IMG/VR virus record: IMGVR_UViG_3300008120_000314 | Span: 1-26,273 of that record | DNA: 26,273 nucleotides | Source of the DNA: a virus | Direction: 5' to 3' (one strand) | In this document: in pieces, positions 2,118-26,273 of the stretch | Layout: each line of letters begins with the position of its first letter | How positions within the stretch are numbered: the first letter of the stretch is position 1 | Translations under genes and position numbers: made by a program | Notes under the pieces: generated by a model | Told to the model about the DNA's origin: nothing | The model's database searches: none | What the model saw: only the letters and a program-made list of their open reading frames with translations

Positions 2118-2144
2118 AACGCCACCTTCGGGTGGCGTTTTTTT
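2118..2144 (+). terminator. intrinsic terminator after gp32, UUCG tetraloop
   Basis: Bases 2118-2126 pair perfectly with 2131-2139 (AACGCCACC / GGTGGCGTT, nine pairs). They close a C(TTCG)G loop, one of the most stable RNA tetraloops, and the T run extends to 2144. It begins six bases after the gp32 stop codon. The convergent gene on the - strand has its stop at 2143-2145, inside the T run. Read on the - strand the hairpin is followed by GCAGTTTAAT, so it would be a weak terminator in that direction. Confidence 0.92.
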
Positions 2145-3957
2145 ATGCTGGCACTGCAACGTTTGTTCGTTTCGTTTCTGCTACAACGTTGTTTGTTGTA
2201 CGTGCGTTAATGTAAGTTGGATTCTGCGGTTTGGATTGTTCTCTTTGTTCTTTTGATAGTTCAGATGAAGATTTTCCTATATCATAATCTGGCGCCTGTT
2301 TTCCTGTTGCCAAGTCAACGGGTTTTCCAGATTTGTTTGGAACAATGTCACCATCAGGTGTGGGTAGACTTTTCAAAGGAGTTACGTGCCAATCTTCTCT
2401 CTTAGAAGGATCTTTTCCCTGTTTTATTAGGAAAGAGGATGTGACTGGTCTTGTAAGCCCGAATTTTTCTAACCAACCTTTAGGGTTGTCAACGTCACCC
2501 GCTAACGTTCCAAACATTTGACCTTTTGCTTGAATATCAATAGCAGTACCACCTGTGTGTGGTGATCCCGCACCAGATGTACCATCAGCACCTTTTAGTG
2601 GTGCAGCAGGTCGAGCAACGACACCTCCTTTTTTACCAGATGCAATCCATTTGTCGTAGAGTTCTTTTTGTTCTTGATTTGAACGATATGCTGAGTTGAT
2701 AAGAAGTTTTTGTCCTGTTTCTTTTGTGTATGCTGTTGCCATTTGCACCAAAAGTTTTTCAAATTCAGGCTTCAATCCAGAATAATCAATAGGAGTAAAT
2801 TTTGGTGAATTGTCTTTAACAACCGATTGCAAACTGACCGATGAAGATGGTTCTTTTGCTGGCTCGGGCAAAGGTGCCATTGTTCCATCTGACGGTGGAA
2901 CTTTATTTACGTCAATTTTAGGTTCTTCTTTTTTCGGTGCAGGAGTTGGTGTTACGGGTCTTTCTTCAATCGGAGGTAATTTTTTTTCTTCTTTTCTGAA
3001 TAAACGTTCCAGAAAAGGTTTCTTTTTTTCTTCTTCAAGTCTTCTTTGTGCCTCTTTTTCAGCTTCTTCTTTTTGTTTTTTCTTCTTCTCTTCTTCTAGT
3101 TTTTGTTTTTCTTTTGCTAGGTTATCTTTTTTTTCCGTTAAATCTTTATCTTCCCGATCAAGTTTTGAATACTCTTCTTCCAACTCTTTCGATTTTTTTA
3201 CTAGAATTTCTCTTGTTGTTCGTCTTTCTTCCAGTTTGTCAACATCGACACCAAGAACATCTATGGCAAACACCCTTCCTAATTGTTGAAGTCTTGGAGA
3301 TAACCATTCTACAGCCATTTCAATATATTTTCCAATACCCTTAATCATTTCTTTATAAAAAGAACCTGCTTGCATAATATAATTACCAACTTGTTCTTCA
3401 CTGATTAAACCGAAACTCAAAAAACTCAAATACTTTTTGAAGGAAGATTCAAATAAATTTAGCCAATCAGTGTTTTCGTATAACGATTTTATCCCATCAG
3501 ATATAAAACCTATTCCTTCTTTTACTTTCGAAATTAAGTCTTCAACATATGGAGTTATGATTTCAGTTACTTTGTATACGATATATCCAATTGAAAGTAG
3601 AGTTCCAATAAACAAGAGTTTAATTAATGTAACTAATTTGTCTAATATTCCGGCCAAAAAAGTTCTCTTTTTTTCTTTACCGTATTTTTTAACTTTAATA
3701 TTGGCAACTTTTATTTCTTTTGATTCGGAAAGTGATTTGGTTAAATCAGATATTTGTCCACCAACGGCAGGTTGAATGTTATGTAACTTTACAAATCTAG
3801 AGAAAGTATTGCTAAGTGATCTTAGTTGTTTTGCCATTGATGGAAACAACAAAGTTTCTTTGGCGACAATACGCATCGCTGCTATACCTTTTGGTGTAGC
3901 AGTATCTTTTACTACTTTACTTTCTGGATTTGTTTTATTAAAAAGTTTATCAAACAT
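2143..3957 (-). CDS. tail-associated structural protein with M15 zinc peptidase domain (third paralog; tape-measure candidate)
   Basis: 604 aa. The C-terminal third (about residues 390-530) is an M15-type (VanY/L-alanyl-D-glutamate or D,D-carboxypeptidase-like) domain. It shows SAYRS at 422-426, SPHTGGTAIDI with zinc ligands H467 and D474, and EDWH with catalytic E521 and zinc ligand H524. Such enzymes cut peptidoglycan peptide bridges. Before it come a helical N-module (about 25-60), a hydrophobic membrane-like segment (about 105-130), an amphipathic central region with GLISEEQV (183-190), a Lys/Glu coiled coil (about 250-315) and a Pro-rich linker. The N-module, membrane segment, central region and QREQ...TNN tail (571-590) are shared with the 700-aa protein and more weakly with the 573-aa protein. 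The start overlaps the previous stop as TAATG. Likely role: a virion protein that opens the cell wall during DNA entry. The tape-measure role is inference; an ejected internal protein is the alternative. Confidence 0.8.
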   Translation of the reverse strand: MFDKLFNKTNPESKVVKDTATPKGIAAMRIVAKETLLFPSMAKQLRSLSNTFSRFVKLHNIQPAVGGQISDLTKSLSESKEIKVANIKVKKYGKEKKRTFLAGILDKLVTLIKLLFIGTLLSIGYIVYKVTEIITPYVEDLISKVKEGIGFISDGIKSLYENTDWLNLFESSFKKYLSFLSFGLISEEQVGNYIMQAGSFYKEMIKGIGKYIEMAVEWLSPRLQQLGRVFAIDVLGVDVDKLEERRTTREILVKKSKELEEEYSKLDREDKDLTEKKDNLAKEKQKLEEEKKKKQKEEAEKEAQRRLEEEKKKPFLERLFRKEEKKLPPIEERPVTPTPAPKKEEPKIDVNKVPPSDGTMAPLPEPAKEPSSSVSLQSVVKDNSPKFTPIDYSGLKPEFEKLLVQMATAYTKETGQKLLINSAYRSNQEQKELYDKWIASGKKGGVVARPAAPLKGADGTSGAGSPHTGGTAIDIQAKGQMFGTLAGDVDNPKGWLEKFGLTRPVTSSFLIKQGKDPSKREDWHVTPLKSLPTPDGDIVPNKSGKPVDLATGKQAPDYDIGKSSSELSKEQREQSKPQNPTYINARTTNNVVAETKRTNVAVPA

Positions 3958-6059
3958 TAGGTTGTTCTATTTGCCAATGCTTCTGTTGGGTCTGTTTTTT
4001 CTACTGACGCTACGTTTTGATTATTTGTTTTCTTGATGTTATTTGTTTTACTTGCGTCAGCTACATTCACATCTTTAGGCTTCATTTGTTCTCTTTGATT
4101 TTGAGCTAATTGTTTCGATTCTTCACCAATATATTTTCCAGCAGATGCAACTTTTGTTGATGATAAAATTGATGCTAATGCTACCGAACCTTGTTTGTCG
4201 TTAGCAGCACCAGAACGAATTAAACTTACTGTTGCCGGCGCTCTGTCTCCAACTTGTTTGTACCATTTACTTGCTTTAAATTCATCGGCAGCTTCTTTAA
4301 ATTTACCTTCTTTAAGTAAACCAGCAGCAATTTTAAATTTTTTGTACCAATATCCGCCCATGTTATAGGTTAAATCAATCAAACCTGCTTTACCTGCTTC
4401 GTTTGCTATATCCCAACCGGGTGCTTTTTTAGCAAGGTCTAAATGTTCTTTAAAATCTTTTTCAAATAATTCACGAACTTCTTGATTTGAAAATTCTCTG
4501 TCCCATTCTTTAGGTAAAGTTTTTCCGTCACCAATCAAGTGTCCAACACCAACTGTCCACAGCCCACGTGAATCTTTGTAGGGCTTATTTTTCCATCCTT
4601 CATTTGCGATTACCATTTGTTTAATGGCTTCATATTCGCCGCTTGTTGCTGATGGTTTAGAAGTTGTTGGTGTTATCGCTGGCGTTGGTTTTGTTGCTGC
4701 TTTAATCTCTTCTTTTTTTGTTGCTGGTTTAACTACAGGTTCGGTTTTAACTTTCTTTGAAATTTTTCTTTCATCATCACCAGCATCACCTATGCCTTCA
4801 AATTGTTCTGTTCGTTCTTTTTCCAGTGCAACTAATTTTTGTTCTTCTTTTGCCTTTTCTATTTTAGCTTCTTGCAAACGAGCCTTTTCTGGACCTTCGG
4901 TCATCTCAGTTATACTATATTCCAAAACCGAAATTTCAACTTTTAATTGTGCAATTCTTGTTTTTTTTCTTTCAATAGATTCACTCATCTGTTCAAAATA
5001 CTTGCCGTATTTTTCAAACATTTCAGCATCATCTTTCAAACGTTTTTCATTTAACTCTTCAAAAGAGGATTTGTAATCTTCGGGTCTAGACTGTGTTGTA
5101 AATAAAGACTTTGCTTTACTAATGATGAATGTGGCAAAACTAGTAACCTTTTCTTCAACAAATTTGATGGCACTGTCAATAGTATTAAATACTTTCATTG
5201 CCATCGTGTCTATCCATTCGACAAAAGAGTCCTTAAAGTTTTTTATATTGTCTTGACCAAATATACCAAACGTAAGAGAATCAATTACACTTACAATAAA
5301 TTTGTCAATAAAATCTTCACCTTTTACAAATGCTTCCCATGTTTCTTTTATGGGTTCCCATAAAATCAAACCAATTAAAACAGCACCGGCGACAATAGGC
5401 AAAAATGGACCTGACCAAACTGACGCCAGTATTGAAACAGATGCTCTTTGAATTAACTTAGTTAAACCTTTTTGCATAAAACGTTTAATGGCATTTGTAA
5501 ACATCTCAATTAGAGGTTTCATTATTTTTGATGTGTTCTTTTTAAACCACTCCAGAAACATCTTTTTAATGTTTAATTTACCTAATAAATTTTTCAAGCC
5601 AGACATTACTTTTCGTTTAAAACGAATTAACTTACGAATGGCTGTTAATTTTCTATAACGTTTTAATACTGCTGCTGTTAGATTTCGTTCAAACTTTCTT
5701 GATACTTTATATCCAATAAACGCTGCAACTAAAGTTTTTGCCCAGCCTTTGTTGCCACTTGTGCCGTCTTTTGCACCTGGAGATATTTTTGAACCAACAT
5801 ATTTTTCACGTAGAACATTGAATTTTTTTGCACGTTCATCATCTTTGAGAAGATGCATATCAGGTGTGCCTTTAACCTTCACACCTTCCATTGCTAAGTA
5901 GCGTGAGAAATTTAACTTGACTAGTTTCAGCTCTTCTGCCATTTTACCTATGGCAAGATAATTAATTGCTGTTTTTTTAAGCGCACCAACTACTGGTGAT
6001 GGGGATGATTTGTTTAAGTCACCCTTGTCTATTGTAAGACCAAGAAGATCGGATAACAT
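3957..6059 (-). CDS. tail-associated structural protein with T4-type lysozyme domain (second paralog; tape-measure candidate)
   Basis: 700 aa. Residues about 475-620 form a T4-lysozyme-like (glycoside hydrolase 24) muramidase. ANEGW...YKDSRGLWTVGVGH places the triad at E487, D496 and T502, with the same 9 and 6 residue spacing as E11, D20 and T26 of T4 lysozyme. Further on, LIDLTYNMG and KWYKQVGDRA match its later helices. In front lie a helical N-module (about 24-58), a long basic helical stretch (120-205), a hydrophobic segment (about 207-233), a central motif FGIFGQDNI (264-272), a coiled coil (about 335-420) and a Lys/Pro/Thr linker. The tail has QREQMKP (655-661) and TNN (672-674), as in the 604-aa protein. 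Both ends join neighbours by TAATG overlaps. Because gp5 here lacks lysozyme, this is the best candidate for the tail lysozyme used at entry rather than a holin-dependent endolysin. The tape-measure role is inferred. Confidence 0.83.
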   Translation of the reverse strand: MLSDLLGLTIDKGDLNKSSPSPVVGALKKTAINYLAIGKMAEELKLVKLNFSRYLAMEGVKVKGTPDMHLLKDDERAKKFNVLREKYVGSKISPGAKDGTSGNKGWAKTLVAAFIGYKVSRKFERNLTAAVLKRYRKLTAIRKLIRFKRKVMSGLKNLLGKLNIKKMFLEWFKKNTSKIMKPLIEMFTNAIKRFMQKGLTKLIQRASVSILASVWSGPFLPIVAGAVLIGLILWEPIKETWEAFVKGEDFIDKFIVSVIDSLTFGIFGQDNIKNFKDSFVEWIDTMAMKVFNTIDSAIKFVEEKVTSFATFIISKAKSLFTTQSRPEDYKSSFEELNEKRLKDDAEMFEKYGKYFEQMSESIERKKTRIAQLKVEISVLEYSITEMTEGPEKARLQEAKIEKAKEEQKLVALEKERTEQFEGIGDAGDDERKISKKVKTEPVVKPATKKEEIKAATKPTPAITPTTSKPSATSGEYEAIKQMVIANEGWKNKPYKDSRGLWTVGVGHLIGDGKTLPKEWDREFSNQEVRELFEKDFKEHLDLAKKAPGWDIANEAGKAGLIDLTYNMGGYWYKKFKIAAGLLKEGKFKEAADEFKASKWYKQVGDRAPATVSLIRSGAANDKQGSVALASILSSTKVASAGKYIGEESKQLAQNQREQMKPKDVNVADASKTNNIKKTNNQNVASVEKTDPTEALANRTT

Positions 6060-7780
6060 TATGGCACAGCGTAATAAGAGTTAATAAATTCACTGTTATA
6101 TGCGCCAGCAGTTTCTTTAGGTTTTTTACCTGTGCTTGTTGAACTGTTGTTCACCGTTCCAGCATCAACATACACTCCAGCATCAGCAGCCGAATCCATT
6201 CTTTGTCCTTCAGCAACTTCAGATGATGTTGATGATAATGCAGCACCCGAAGTCGTTGGGGAAGATGCTGCTGGTGAAGGGGATGATTCTGAAGGTGTAA
6301 CAGAACTTGCTGTACTAGGTGCGCCAGACATTCCTGTTGCACCACTGGCACTTTTTGCCTCAGTAGAACCAGCATCAGTGGTAGTACCAACTGCACCAGT
6401 TGATGTTGCAGCTTTAACTTGTTCTGGAGAAGTTTCTTTACTTCTTATTACTTTTAAAATTTTATCAGGATTACCACCTTCGTCAGCAATTGCTTGTCTT
6501 ACTGCTTGTTCGGATATTTCAAAGTTTGTGCCTACTCTTGAAAATCCAGTTTTAGAATTTGGGTCTATTTGTACAAAGGCTTTTTTTCTTAGAAACTCTA
6601 TTGCTGCTTCTTTATTTGTTTCGGCTTTTGTTGCTAAAGATTCTTTAGACGCTGTTCCAGTTTTACCTTTTTCTTTTGTGGGTTTACCTGCTGATGCATC
6701 TGATGAAACTACGTTGCCCGCAGCATCATAAGTTGTTTCTCCTAGTGCTGTTTTTCCTTTGCCCAAATCTTCTTTTGGTGGCGGCACCGGTGCAGTTGCA
6801 CCGGTTGGCTGCACAGTAACACTTTCTTTTTTCTTATCGAATGGTCTGAAACCAGGAACTTGAATATCTGAAAAACCCAATCCAATTTTTTTCAGAAGAT
6901 CACCAACACCAGGTATATCATTTATTTTTGAAAGTGGTATCGTAAACGGATCCCAACCAACATTATCTTTAAGCCAACTAACAATTTTATTAAATGTCTC
7001 ACCCATAACATCAATCATTGGTGCTAGATATTCCGACAGACTATCTAAAGACTTACGTAACTCTTTTTCACCAAATAAACCCGCAGTGATAAAATCTAGA
7101 AATTTACCAACGCCTTTAATTAGAGTTTCTTTTACTATATCTGTTTCTGTTATTTTTTGCCAACCTTCTTTAATTGTTTCAAATAATCCTTCAATCAATG
7201 GTAATGGATTTAATTTGTCTGCAATGTCAGACATTAACTTGCCAAGATCGAAAACTTTAAGAAATGCCATACCCAAACCAATAAACAAACCACCCAAAAT
7301 ACTTTTAATCAGATCCCAAAGAAAACTGAGAATACCTTCTTCTTCACCACCTTTTTCCATTCTTTCTTTTTTGGCTTTACCTTCTCTTTCTTGAATTGGC
7401 GCAGTTTCTTGTTTACGTGCTGCTTCTAATTCTGCCTCACGTTGATCTTCTGACTTAAAGAATTTGTCTGCTTTTGTAAGAGCTTCTGCATTTTTTAGTT
7501 TTACCAACTTGACGATATTTTGACGAAGCACATTCATGTCTCTTGCCATACCAGGCAAAGCAAGAGAGTTTTTAGCAATGATGTTTAGAAAAGGTATGAT
7601 ATCTTCACTGATTGAACCTTCTGATGGATTGCCCACCTTAGTTGGTGAAGTTGAACTTTTTCTTTTTTTGGAAAAGATAGACTCAGCTAGGCTTTTACCT
7701 CTACCTATCGTTCTTTTCATATCAGCGAAACTTATATAACCAAGTTCTTTCGCTAAGTCTTCAAACGTTTTATTTGCCAT
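6059..7780 (-). CDS. tail-associated structural protein, first paralog, no enzyme domain (tape-measure candidate)
   Basis: 573 aa, close to the 590 aa of the T4 tape measure gp29, though I see no direct similarity to gp29. Residues 62-95 (IPFLNIIAKNSLALPGMA and following) align without gaps with the N-modules of the 604- and 700-aa proteins. A hydrophobic Gly-rich segment lies at about 150-177, and a helical central region with AGLFGEKEL (233-241) matches their central motifs. Residues 385-455 form a small helical domain I do not recognise. About 455-525 is a low-complexity Ser/Thr/Ala/Pro linker. The end carries a degenerate tail module (QR at 526, VNN at 543-545). It lacks the hydrolase present in its sisters. 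It is the first gene after gp26 and its -1 frame extension, and its ATG overlaps that frame's TAA. This is where tape-measure genes sit relative to tail-assembly chaperones. Confidence 0.7.
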   Translation of the reverse strand: MANKTFEDLAKELGYISFADMKRTIGRGKSLAESIFSKKRKSSTSPTKVGNPSEGSISEDIIPFLNIIAKNSLALPGMARDMNVLRQNIVKLVKLKNAEALTKADKFFKSEDQREAELEAARKQETAPIQEREGKAKKERMEKGGEEEGILSFLWDLIKSILGGLFIGLGMAFLKVFDLGKLMSDIADKLNPLPLIEGLFETIKEGWQKITETDIVKETLIKGVGKFLDFITAGLFGEKELRKSLDSLSEYLAPMIDVMGETFNKIVSWLKDNVGWDPFTIPLSKINDIPGVGDLLKKIGLGFSDIQVPGFRPFDKKKESVTVQPTGATAPVPPPKEDLGKGKTALGETTYDAAGNVVSSDASAGKPTKEKGKTGTASKESLATKAETNKEAAIEFLRKKAFVQIDPNSKTGFSRVGTNFEISEQAVRQAIADEGGNPDKILKVIRSKETSPEQVKAATSTGAVGTTTDAGSTEAKSASGATGMSGAPSTASSVTPSESSPSPAASSPTTSGAALSSTSSEVAEGQRMDSAADAGVYVDAGTVNNSSTSTGKKPKETAGAYNSEFINSYYAVP

Positions 7781-7917
7781 TATCGTTTTTGTTTTTGTGC
7801 GTTAATACGTTCTTTTTCTTCTTCCAAATAATTAACTAACAGACTAATGTAGATGTTTCTTTCCCAAGGTAGCATTTCTTCTAGTTCGGTCAAACTATAC
7901 TTGTGATGCTGCATCAT
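7780..7917 (-). CDS. small helical ORF; probably the C-terminal domain of a gp26 -1 frameshift product
   Basis: From ATG at 7917 the frame gives 45 aa beginning MMQHHKYSLTELEEMLPWER and ending at a TAA (7782-7780) that overlaps the ATG of the 573-aa gene. No Shine-Dalgarno sequence precedes the ATG. The same frame is open further back to the end of gp26, and the extra upstream residues (LIFRYDTLANYYQTNFA) also look protein-like. The natural reading is therefore a 63-residue extension (7971-7780) joined to gp26 by -1 frameshifting. The pattern SLTELEEMLPWER followed by an amphipathic helix and a charged tail resembles the downstream parts of frameshifted tail-assembly chaperones in other phages; this is my recollection of a general pattern, not a search. 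The alternative is an independent 45-aa protein made by reinitiation. Confidence 0.68.
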   Translation of the reverse strand: MMQHHKYSLTELEEMLPWERNIYISLLVNYLEEEKERINAQKQKR

Positions 7918-7964
7918 TGCAAAATTTGTCTGATAATAATTAGCTAAAGTGTCATAACGAAATA

Positions 7965-8696
7965 TTAGGCGAAAAAATTTTGGAGTCCTTTAACCACCAT
8001 GTCCTCCTTATACCCACACTTTGGACAATCAAATTCAAAATCTTTTTTAATTTCAGGCATCGTGTCAAAGAACATACGAATTTTTTCTAAATCTTTTTGT
8101 TGCATAGAATCTACAAACTCTTCCAATTCTTTACGAGAAGAGTCTTTGGCATAGTATACTTGATCATCGTCGTAGAGATAATCAATACAGTCAACCAAAA
8201 TATTAACCATAATATCATTCTCTTCCATTTGTTCATATTTTTGAACCATCTCAAAAGTCGGATACTTTAAACAGATGCCAATTTTATCATTCAACATAAA
8301 CTTATTTGAATGTTCATTATGTTTTGTTGGCTGAATTTCTAAGAGATTGACATTAAATTCTACAGTACCGTTACAAACAGTGTCTTCACCTTTGTCATTT
8401 TTTACCGTGTTGTTACATTTGTATTTTAAATTTACAACTTCTTCTACCGATCTTGCACGTAGATTCATGAACAGATATTCAAGATCAAATGTGGGCAACG
8501 AATCAATATCAATATCATCTAGTACACAGTTCTTTAGAACTTGCTTAATTGTATTAATTGTTTCTTTGGAATCTTCTGATTCTGCTGCCATTAAAAAAAG
8601 TTTCTGTTCTTTGACCAAAAATGGTCGAATTCGAACTTCTTTTCCTGTCGAAATCAAATTTACAGAATAAAGTGGTACATCAAGTTTTGGTAACAT
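7965..8696 (-). CDS. gp26: gp26-like baseplate hub / tail-assembly protein
   Basis: 243 aa (T4 gp26: 208). It begins MLPKLDVPLYSVNLISTGKE and continues IRPFLVKEQKLFLMAAES, typical of the conserved T4 gp26 family (Pfam name T4_baseplate, from memory). Four cysteines in two pairs, C94/C108 and C224/C227 (CPKC), could form a zinc ribbon. Context agrees: as in T4, gp26 lies on the strand opposite gp25. A good ribosome-binding site (AGAGGA, 8706-8701) precedes the ATG. Classical T4 work places gp26 in hub assembly with gp51, which acts catalytically. The end of the gene carries a -1 slippery sequence that would produce a longer form of about 305 aa. That makes an assembly-chaperone role (like lambda gpG/gpGT) more likely than a purely structural one; this is inference. 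Confidence 0.8.
   Translation of the reverse strand: MLPKLDVPLYSVNLISTGKEVRIRPFLVKEQKLFLMAAESEDSKETINTIKQVLKNCVLDDIDIDSLPTFDLEYLFMNLRARSVEEVVNLKYKCNNTVKNDKGEDTVCNGTVEFNVNLLEIQPTKHNEHSNKFMLNDKIGICLKYPTFEMVQKYEQMEENDIMVNILVDCIDYLYDDDQVYYAKDSSRKELEEFVDSMQQKDLEKIRMFFDTMPEIKKDFEFDCPKCGYKEDMVVKGLQNFFA
7971..7980 (-). promoter_or_regulatory. candidate -1 ribosomal frameshift site at the end of gp26
   Basis: On the - strand gp26 ends CAA AAT TTT TTC GCC TAA. Two slippery heptamers fit in the reading frame: A AAT TTT (7980-7974) and T TTT TTC (7977-7971). The second allows both tRNA-Phe to re-pair on TTT TTT after slipping back one base, after which the ribosome enters the frame that stays open to 7780. 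The site lies just one sense codon (GCC) before the normal stop. An AAAGGA (7991-7986) eight bases upstream could act as a Shine-Dalgarno-like stimulator. I see no clear downstream stem-loop. Confidence 0.62.
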
Positions 8697-24066: not shown

Positions 24067-24546
24067 ATGGCACTTACTACAAATTTTAATCAAGATCCTT
24101 ACTACGACGATTTTGACGACGATAAAAATTATTATAGGGTTTTGTTTAAGCCGGGAAATGCTGTTCAATCCCGTGAATTGACGCAACTTCAAAGTACCTT
24201 ACAAGATCAGATTAAAAAGTTTGGCGACCATGTGTTCAAAACTGGTTCCGTAGTTACAGGTGGGCAAATCACAATTCAAAATGTAGCGTATATTAACATT
24301 GCTTCAAGTTATTCCGGCCAAGATATTTCATATTTAAATTTTGATAAACAAGTAATTATTAATTCGGCCAATACAAAACGTGCATATGTTTTAAAATCGT
24401 ATGGTGCTGTTAGTGCAAATAATGAGCCAATCACATTTATTGTCAATCAATTATATGGCGATCCATTTACAGTTAATGAAACTATCTACACTTCAAATAC
24501 TGACCCACAAGCAATAACTTATTATGCAAATACTGCTTCGTTTTGA
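24067..24546 (+). CDS. DUF4815-like virion structural protein, N-terminal part (frame broken)
   Basis: 159 aa, opening MALTTNFNQDPYYDDFDDDK, then NYYRVLFKPGNAVQSRELTQ and LQDQIKKFGDHVFKTGSVVTGG. This is the hallmark start of a large structural protein found next to baseplate genes in T4-like phages of marine bacteria (DUF4815 family by memory); its exact role, probably a peripheral baseplate or fibre-anchor protein, is not known to me. AAAGG 8 bases before the ATG is a good ribosome-binding site. The frame ends TCG TTT TGA at 24538-24546. The rest of the protein continues in the -1 frame from the same place. Related proteins as I remember them have a further conserved block of about 70-90 residues here (a segment with ...GVFFV.GFFV... 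and ...APGADR...), which is absent. Confidence 0.72.
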   Translation: MALTTNFNQDPYYDDFDDDKNYYRVLFKPGNAVQSRELTQLQSTLQDQIKKFGDHVFKTGSVVTGGQITIQNVAYINIASSYSGQDISYLNFDKQVIINSANTKRAYVLKSYGAVSANNEPITFIVNQLYGDPFTVNETIYTSNTDPQAITYYANTASF

Positions 24547-26273
24547 TGACACTGGAGACAAGACCGATTGGTAGCACAGATTTGAAACAATTTGTGGAGT
24601 TAAGCATCATGGATGGTGGTGTTCCACAAAAAACTGTTAATACTCCAATCTATGCTTCTTTAGGTGATGAATTTGCCCGCAGAACAGAAGATGAGTCTGG
24701 TGATTATGTTATTAAAAATTTCCCATTAGAACTCACCGACAGCGTTTCGAATTCGGCTTTTGCTAATGTTACTTTAGGTTCAGGTAAAGCATATATTAAA
24801 GGTTATGAATTTAGAACTGATGCACCAACAACAATAACTGTACCAAAACCAAGAACTACGGAGACTGTAGAAAATCGTAGAGTTGAGGTTGATTACGGTT
24901 ATTATATTTTTGCCAATGGCATGTATGGTAATTTTGCAACAAACCAATATGCTAATGCCGATATTTCATTATTGAATACCGGTCAAATAACTAATTATGT
25001 TGGAACAGGAAATGCTGCAATTTACGCAAACACAACAATTGGAAACACAAAAATTAAAGTTGTTTCTTTTTATTCCGTTTCGGGCAACACAAGTGAGAGT
25101 AATAACTATATTTACAAAGTATATTTAACTGATGTAAATACTCGTCCTATAGCGGCAAATGGTGGTTATGGTATAAATGCAACAGGTGGCTCCACAAGCA
25201 CAGTGGTATTTCCTACTGGATTTGCTGCAAATAATGATGTATATAAAGGCTTGTCATTGAGAATTGTTGGTGGTGCGCCACTAAACTCACCTAGCGATAA
25301 TTCAACAAGAATCATTACTGATTATGTTGGATCAAGTTTAACTGCTACCGTTTTCCCACCTTTTAGCACCGCAGTTGGAGCCAATTTTAGATTCATACTT
25401 GATCCTAAATTCGCTGATGCTGAATCTCTTGTTAGATTGGGTGCTGGAAATTCTCGTATTGCATTGGCAAATGTTTCACCTTTATCAAAAGATGAACAAA
25501 TTGGTGTATCTACAACCACACTTGTTCAATCTAAAGGGCTATTTCAGCCTGCTTCAATTAGAGATACAATAAGAGAACCTTTGTTAATTAGAGTTGGTGT
25601 AGAAAATGTTGCTGATAATACTATACGTGATTTTTCATACTCATATAAGAGATTATATCAAACTGTCACATTTACCGGCGGAGTATCGCAAGCATTATCT
25701 TTAGGTACTGGTGAAACTCTACAAAGTGCAACTACAACTGATTCAAAACAAAGATATTATCAAGTTATCCCAACTAATTCTGGCACAAGTTGGTATCAAG
25801 TAGGTAGAACTATTCCGGCTGAAAACTTTACTGTTGATACTTCATCAAGAACAATCACGGTAACAGATGGTGCGAATATGACAGCAAACATTTATGCTGT
25901 TGTAAATGCTTCTAACCCAACTTCAAAAACAAAAACATTTGTTAAAGCAAACACCCAGTTAGTTGACCCAGGATGGGGTATAGGCCTAGGAACTTACGTA
26001 AAAGTTTTTGCTGCTAACAATAATGCGAACGTGGCTCCATTTGATGGTCAAACTATTATCAATCAATCAATAGTTGAAAGAAGACCAGGGCAACCACAAT
26101 GGTTATACGTAACGGATGTTCATTCAATTAATGCTATTTTTGATTTAAATGGTGCTAACGTAACTACATCTGTATACAATGCTCTCACCGAGTCATCAAA
26201 CGTTACTGCCAGATATATTTTGAATACTGGACAAAAGGATTCTTATTATGATTGGTCATCGATTACTTTAAGA
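24546..26273 (+). CDS. DUF4815-like virion structural protein, C-terminal part (runs off the window)
   Basis: From ATG 24546 (overlapping the TGA of the previous piece as TGATG) the frame is open without a stop to the last base, 576 codons. I read it codon by codon. It begins MTLETRPIGSTDLKQFVELS, continues with ARRTEDESGDY and LGSGKAYIKGYEF, and near the window end has ARYILNTGQKDSYYDWSSIT. All of these are the family pattern (Arg-Arg-Thr-x-Asp-Glu-Ser-Gly, Gly-Lys-Ala-Tyr-x-Lys-Gly, and Gly-Gln-x-Asp-x-Tyr-Tyr-Asp). It is clearly the continuation of the 24067 gene. The TGATG could allow reinitiation to make it as a separate chain, but there is no Shine-Dalgarno sequence. The C-terminus is outside the window. 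Confidence 0.75.
   Translation, partial: MTLETRPIGSTDLKQFVELSIMDGGVPQKTVNTPIYASLGDEFARRTEDESGDYVIKNFPLELTDSVSNSAFANVTLGSGKAYIKGYEFRTDAPTTITVPKPRTTETVENRRVEVDYGYYIFANGMYGNFATNQYANADISLLNTGQITNYVGTGNAAIYANTTIGNTKIKVVSFYSVSGNTSESNNYIYKVYLTDVNTRPIAANGGYGINATGGSTSTVVFPTGFAANNDVYKGLSLRIVGGAPLNSPSDNSTRIITDYVGSSLTATVFPPFSTAVGANFRFILDPKFADAESLVRLGAGNSRIALANVSPLSKDEQIGVSTTTLVQSKGLFQPASIRDTIREPLLIRVGVENVADNTIRDFSYSYKRLYQTVTFTGGVSQALSLGTGETLQSATTTDSKQRYYQVIPTNSGTSWYQVGRTIPAENFTVDTSSRTITVTDGANMTANIYAVVNASNPTSKTKTFVKANTQLVDPGWGIGLGTYVKVFAANNNANVAPFDGQTIINQSIVERRPGQPQWLYVTDVHSINAIFDLNGANVTTSVYNALTESSNVTARYILNTGQKDSYYDWSSITLR

Follow-up and report, generated by a model that had tools for sequence, protein, structure and literature searches.

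Three tandem paralogs occupying the tape-measure slot of a T4-like aquatic phage as candidate chains of a hetero-oligomeric tape measure

In this study, we analyzed a 26,273-base fragment from IMG/VR (the window, i.e. the whole stretch of DNA examined), which is a piece of a T4-like phage genome, and focused on three tandem genes that follow a gp26-like chaperone gene on its minus strand: P1 (573 aa; 6059-7780), a first paralog with a QRMD-type tail recognized by open reading frame (ORF), module hidden Markov model (HMM) and profile comparison, and P2 (700 aa; 3957-6059) and P3 (604 aa; 2143-3957), second-type paralogs that, by Pfam and profile comparison, contain a GH24 lysozyme and a VanY/M15 peptidase, respectively. 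We found that P1-P3 are probably a tandem family of tape-measure-type proteins in the tape-measure slot of this genome. That the three chains jointly form a hetero-oligomeric tape measure appears to be the best reading, unproven and with about even chances.

Results

Paralogy of the three proteins

Judged from their sequences, P1, P2 and P3 are true paralogs. First, a tblastn search with P3 matched P1 (E 1.6e-8), and tblastn of P1 against phage records gave no match. Second, the profile-profile comparison proposed in an earlier note on this DNA linked all three proteins, with hhalign values of 97.2% for P1-P2 (E 4e-11), 97.9% for P1-P3 (E 6e-13) and 94.8% for P2-P3; the alignment of P1 with P2 and P3 spanned ~220 columns, covering the N-module, the hydrophobic segment and the central motif. 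Reversed-profile controls for these pairs reached at most 6%, and none of the 80 control pairs between slot families and gp48, gp5, gp27 or gp32 families exceeded 1%. Third, an iterative HMM of the N-module matched 62 ORFs; in loci anchored by gp26 every match was a slot ORF, and the three matches listed outside the slot were duplicate or partial loci of slot genes. Genome-wide matches whose position was checked were likewise in the slot, and the module count was exactly three in G005, a 41.9-kb contig from the same phage, two in each of the relatives of 169, 162 and 64 kb (G001, G006 and G002) and one in a 92-kb relative (G004).

The shared elements described in the earlier note, which was made from the letters alone, were all found. 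The N-module is shared in the register given there, with exact stretches at residues 69-97 of P1 (AKNSLALPGMARDMNVLRQNIVKLVKLKN; 7490-7576, supported by the module HMM as well as by sequence), 31-59 of P2 (5883-5969) and 32-60 of P3 (3778-3864); these and all features below that belong to P1-P3 are on the minus strand. A hydrophobic segment is present in each protein (P1 150-168, 7277-7333; P2 219-237, 5349-5405; P3 100-118, 3604-3660), and the central motif reads GLFGEKEL at residue 234 of P1 (7058-7081), GIFGQDNI at residue 265 of P2 (5244-5267) and GLISEEQV at residue 183 of P3 (3388-3411), the form in second-type relatives being [ST]FGLIDKE. The C-tail is QREQ...KTNN in P2 (4038-4112) and QREQ...TTNN in P3 (2188-2262), and is degenerate in P1 (QRMD...TVNN; 6146-6220). 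P2 and P3 have in common the second-type pattern QR.Q.KP...TNN, where P1 has QRMD, and Q571, R572 and Q574 of the C-tail were invariant in 13 second-type proteins.

The tape-measure slot behind gp26 and gp51

The gp26-like baseplate/tail-assembly chaperone (7965-8696, minus strand; PF12322, Pfam E 3e-62; phrog_150) ends, in frame, in the slippery heptamer T TTT TTC (7971-7977, minus strand), a predicted -1 frameshift site. Reading frame and related loci point to a gp51-like -1 frame extension behind it (7780-7971, minus strand; HHKYSLTELEEMLPWERNIYISLLVNYLEEEKERINAQKQKR, then a stop that overlaps the P1 ATG). Among related loci, 89 of 91 have TTTTTT[C/T/G] as the last gp26 codons in the -1 slip register, and the slip site opens a conserved frame of ~60 residues (HHKYSLTELENM.PWER.IY), whose end coincides with the beginning of the following gene or lies close to it. 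This frame is the 'gp51' of annotated cyanophages. It looks like a continuation of gp26 that is reached by -1 frameshifting, where the annotated records of cyanophages and pelagiphages give a separate small gene.

An overlapping, frameshifted chaperone upstream, as in the lambda G/GT layout, is an established marker of tape-measure genes (PMC3556154; PMC2147016). The predicted gp26-gp51 pair resembles G/GT in layout, with overlapping frames and a slippery heptamer leading to a -1 extension, and P1-P3 follow this predicted frameshifted tail-assembly chaperone. Because they stand directly behind a G/GT-like pair, their slot appears to be the tape-measure slot. The gp26-proximal position and the TAATG joins pointed out in the earlier note were both confirmed, the joins being present at three of three junctions (gp51-P1, P1-P2 and P2-P3) and so including that of the gp51 frame with P1. 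In the Pelagibacter phage HTVC008M, the slot is filled by one large gene annotated as a putative tape measure, whose product matches several tape-measure PHROGs (best E 8e-12); cyanophage slot proteins also match several of them.

Copy number and enzyme exchange among relatives

Related contigs have one, two or three large ORFs between gp26 and gp32. Among cluster C cyanophages, there is one slot gene in S-CRM01 and there are two in S-H34, S-N03, S-B68 and S-CREM2; among the T4-like cyanophages covered here, two chains (A and B) are the rule, and there are also versions with one chain. The only slot protein of S-CRM01 shows homology to each of the two S-H34 chains (H34_A and H34_B), and the A and B chains of S-PM2 share one PHROG. 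Two single slot proteins of ~1,510 aa, far above other singles, were also observed (L064, 7691-12220; L079, 9935-14485). Two further candidates were left out of the copy numbers: locus L036 (2450-6635) was not counted as a three-gene case, as the two ORFs at its start (185 and 431 aa, with N-module and C-tail apart) resemble one broken first-type gene, and a gene of ~460 aa that follows A and B in cyanophages was rejected as a third paralog, being a gp27-like hub protein (phrog_350).

The cargo ascribed to P2 and P3 in the earlier note was verified. P2 contains a T4-type lysozyme domain (PF00959, Pfam E 2e-12; residues 487-607, 4239-4601) whose E...D(+9)...T(+15) triad, read by eye from the sequence, is intact, and P3 contains a VanY D-Ala-D-Ala peptidase domain (PF02557, Pfam E 1e-7; residues 395-525, 2383-2775) with intact zinc motifs SPHTGGTAID and EDWH, also read by eye. 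P1, said to have no cargo, is not strictly cargo-free, because AlphaFold2 predicted a small folded domain at residues 376-452 (6425-6655), confident over residues ~380-446 (pLDDT >90; 92-96 over 381-440), to which no family was assigned and which is also kept in two close orthologs (L011 and L012).

As the earlier note had anticipated, enzymes change among relatives and modules stay: GH24, GH19, VanY (M15), M23, SLT and tail lysozyme domains were all found in the slot. In two relatives (L030 and L034), GH24 and VanY lie within one second-type protein that can be aligned with both P2 and P3. P2 and P3 thus look as if such a protein had been split between them, and we infer from the sequences that they arose by duplication of a two-enzyme second-type chain followed by complementary loss. 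In the S-PM2 A chain (L194, 9886-13389), residues 66-218, ahead of the B-paralogous part, match an ADP-ribosyltransferase-like domain (PF01129, E 1e-5), possibly a cargo that a protein of tape-measure type brings into the cyanobacterium.

Chain lengths, tail lengths and virions

The main rival to a joint ruler is that P1 alone measures, and that P2 and P3 are tape-measure-derived riders, which would retain their docking modules, occupy the lumen or the hub and carry wall enzymes to the host, but have no part in setting length. The conserved first-type sequence of P1, which lacks a known enzyme, favors such a division of labor. In 51 two-gene genomes, however, the log lengths of the A and B chains (whole proteins, cargo included) correlated strongly (r 0.87), also after phylogenetic correction (independent contrasts r 0.74, p 6e-10), whereas paralog lengths showed no significant correlation with those of gp54-like, gp48, gp53, gp27-like or gp32 neighbors (contrast |r| <=0.27).

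The tail of S-PM2 is 161 nm long. Published tail lengths are 129 nm for S-H34, 138 nm for S-N03, 165 nm for S-CREM1, 173 nm for S-SCSM1 and 113.6 nm for S-SZBM1, and 418 nm was reported for S-CREM2. Over these seven cyanophages, S-CREM2 included, tail length correlated with chain A (rho 0.82, p 0.02) more closely than with chain B (rho 0.75, p 0.05). In the six phages other than S-CREM2, each residue of chain A corresponds to 1.27-1.82 Å of tail and each residue of chain B to 1.46-2.15 Å, values that count in favor of the joint reading; the closer fit of A to 1.5 Å per residue (mean about 1.5 vs 1.75) and its closer correlation favor a single ruler. On the other hand, the unusual length of both chains in S-CREM2 (1565 and 1456 aa), the homology of the one S-CRM01 chain to H34_A as well as H34_B, and the common PHROG of S-PM2 A and B argue against a single ruler. 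Overall, measurement by P1 alone seems less likely than joint measurement. A series arrangement of the chains (A+B) was rejected: its 1.38 Å per summed residue suits S-CREM2, but the other six phages give 0.68-0.84 Å. The S-CREM2 B chain (L193, 19185-23555) contains ~500 residues of short FQQSMGSVAPAG-like repeats; among cyanomyoviruses, the tail reported for S-CREM2 is the longest.

Virion evidence, like the tail lengths, comes from cyanophages with homologous slot proteins. Mass spectrometry of S-CREM2 virions detected both slot chains, with 73 and 71 unique peptides (PMC10665884); per residue, by this crude measure, these counts are close to those of hub proteins in the same table. The slot proteins of S-SCSM1 are also present in its virion (PMC9602691).

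Structure models and comparison with gp29

AlphaFold2 models of P1 and P3 were of low confidence. P1 was helical over residues 62-274, the rest apart from the small domain being linker; P3 was mostly helical up to residue 312, including a predicted long helix at residues 239-312 (3022-3243; pLDDT about 70-87 over most of it), followed by linker and folded cargo. A Foldseek search of PDB and BFVD with the P1 model returned nothing at E 0.001 or better.

According to a second rival, the true tape measure is a diverged gp29 encoded in the unsequenced part of the genome, which would leave P1-P3 as enzymes and scaffolds associated with the tail. The window indeed covers no more than 26 kb, tape measures of T4-like phages diverge rapidly (PMC2147016), and similarity of the slot proteins to gp29 is weak: PHROG searches gave no match to the gp29 family phrog_1283, and the S-CAM1 slot B protein matched it at E 0.0025 only. 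The hhalign comparison with gp29, as proposed in the earlier note, gave 63.9% for P3 and about 15% or less for all other families (reversed controls <=7%), so that homology of the slot family to gp29 is only suggestive. However, the slot is chaperone-proximal and has a predicted frameshift site, and its HTVC008M occupant matches tape-measure families. Moreover, phrog_1283 was not found in five complete or large genomes (S-SM1, HTVC008M and three contigs of 131-169 kb) in a search whose T4 positive control matched, and the earlier note had recognized no gp29 in the window; in the 169-kb relative (G001), no other tape-measure-like ORF was recognized among ten long ORFs, most of which were assigned and two of which had no family match. 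We thus consider a hidden gp29 improbable. Previous authors were likewise unable to identify a tape measure in T4-like cyano- and pelagiphages (PMC7029224).

Finally, P1-P3 are most unlikely to be endolysins or capsid-internal enzymes: homologues carry the PHROG label 'endolysin' and encapsidation was suggested by the S-CREM2 authors (PMC10665884), but a site between hub genes and chaperone, large conserved stretches outside the enzymes (the N-half and the C-tail) and a first paralog poor in enzyme content do not agree with a role in lysis.

Other genes of the window

The minus strand encodes, in order, gp4-like, gp2-like, tube-like and gp26-like proteins, P1, P2 and P3, with gp32 convergent behind P3; genes for gp48, gp53, gp27-like, gp5, gp25, gp6, gp7-like and gp8 are on the plus strand. 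A VrlC-like gene (phrog_358; 24067-26273, plus strand) is split into 159 aa and then, in another frame from 24504, 590 aa open to the window end, either by a sequence error or by a real frameshift.

Discussion

T4 gp29 (phrog_1283) resembles the window proteins in its operon with gp26, gp51 and hub genes, its size (590 aa vs 573-700 aa) and its inferred role in the tail lumen, but it is a single gene, and the PHROG match of the T4 protein shows no enzyme domain, unlike P2 and P3; three copies per tail are listed in a review (PMC3004832). The putative HTVC008M tape measure has the same slot after gp26 and gp51 and the same slippery layout, but is one gene, and profile comparison did not link it to the proteins of the window. 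The cyanophage A/B pair (phrog_790, phrog_1200, phrog_5453 and phrog_7, labelled endolysin or unknown) consists of tandem paralogs in the same slot with swapping cargo; its chains, which have been found in virions, differ in being two, longer and equipped with other enzymes, and their link to the window family is mostly indirect, through intermediates. Wall enzymes inside a tape measure that are delivered on ejection are known from phiCbK gp95 (CHAP domain) and mycobacteriophage TM4 (PMC3556154), where there is one enzyme-bearing chain and no paralogs were described. Among the open-access papers searched, we found no description of paralogous tape-measure chains.

The split tape measure proposed in the earlier note is supported in part, with regard to slot, paralogy, cargo change, the failure to find a separate gp29 in complete or large relatives, the presence of homologous slot proteins in virions and the length co-variation in two-gene relatives, but it is not unique to the window. 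Rather than as a replacement for a homotrimer, the three-chain arrangement is best described as one extreme of a series in which copy number runs from 1 through 2 to 3. We tentatively suggest, at somewhat less than even chances, that the ruler and ejection plug is a hetero-oligomer of three products in a fixed ratio (1:1:1 on the threefold hub, or 2:2:2), derived from a homo-oligomer by stepwise duplication and giving each virion one defined set of wall tools. In the joint tape measure that is our best reading, the gp26 and gp26-gp51 chaperones would hold all three chains, which would be anchored next to one another in the gp27/gp5 hub through their shared end module, run together up the tail-tube lumen and jointly set its length. 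As the chains would be ejected first, each virion would deliver enzymes that cut glycans (P2) and peptide bonds (P3) along with segments active on membranes.

Several points weigh against a joint ruler. First, two-chain phages on a threefold hub would require a 2:1 ratio or a hexamer. Second, the length co-variation is confined to two-gene genomes and includes cargo, and the tail-length series has n = 7; without S-CREM2, no tail-length trend was significant in the remaining six cyanophages, and S-CREM2 itself, at 2.67 (A) and 2.87 (B) Å per residue, is off the 1.5 Å rule, its extra length being partly low-complexity repeats. Third, the P1 and P3 models contain ~210-290 helical residues per chain, which would not suffice for an all-helical ruler of a ~100-nm tail. 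Fourth, the gp29 signal of P3 is weak, and in a tree of the N-region P2 and P3 are on long unresolved stems, with branches too long for this tree to be used in placing them.

Our results point to a specific slot in which T4-like cyano- and pelagiphages would encode their tape measure and suggest that many genes labelled endolysin or unknown encode tape-measure chains. If several chains indeed measure together, a tape measure does not have to be a homo-oligomer, and duplication with a split of enzyme domains would be a clear evolutionary route to such an assembly; chains that work together would represent a new way of building the tail-measuring, host-ejected part of the virion. The question of how many chains, and at which ratio to one another, determine the length of a contractile tail thereby becomes testable.

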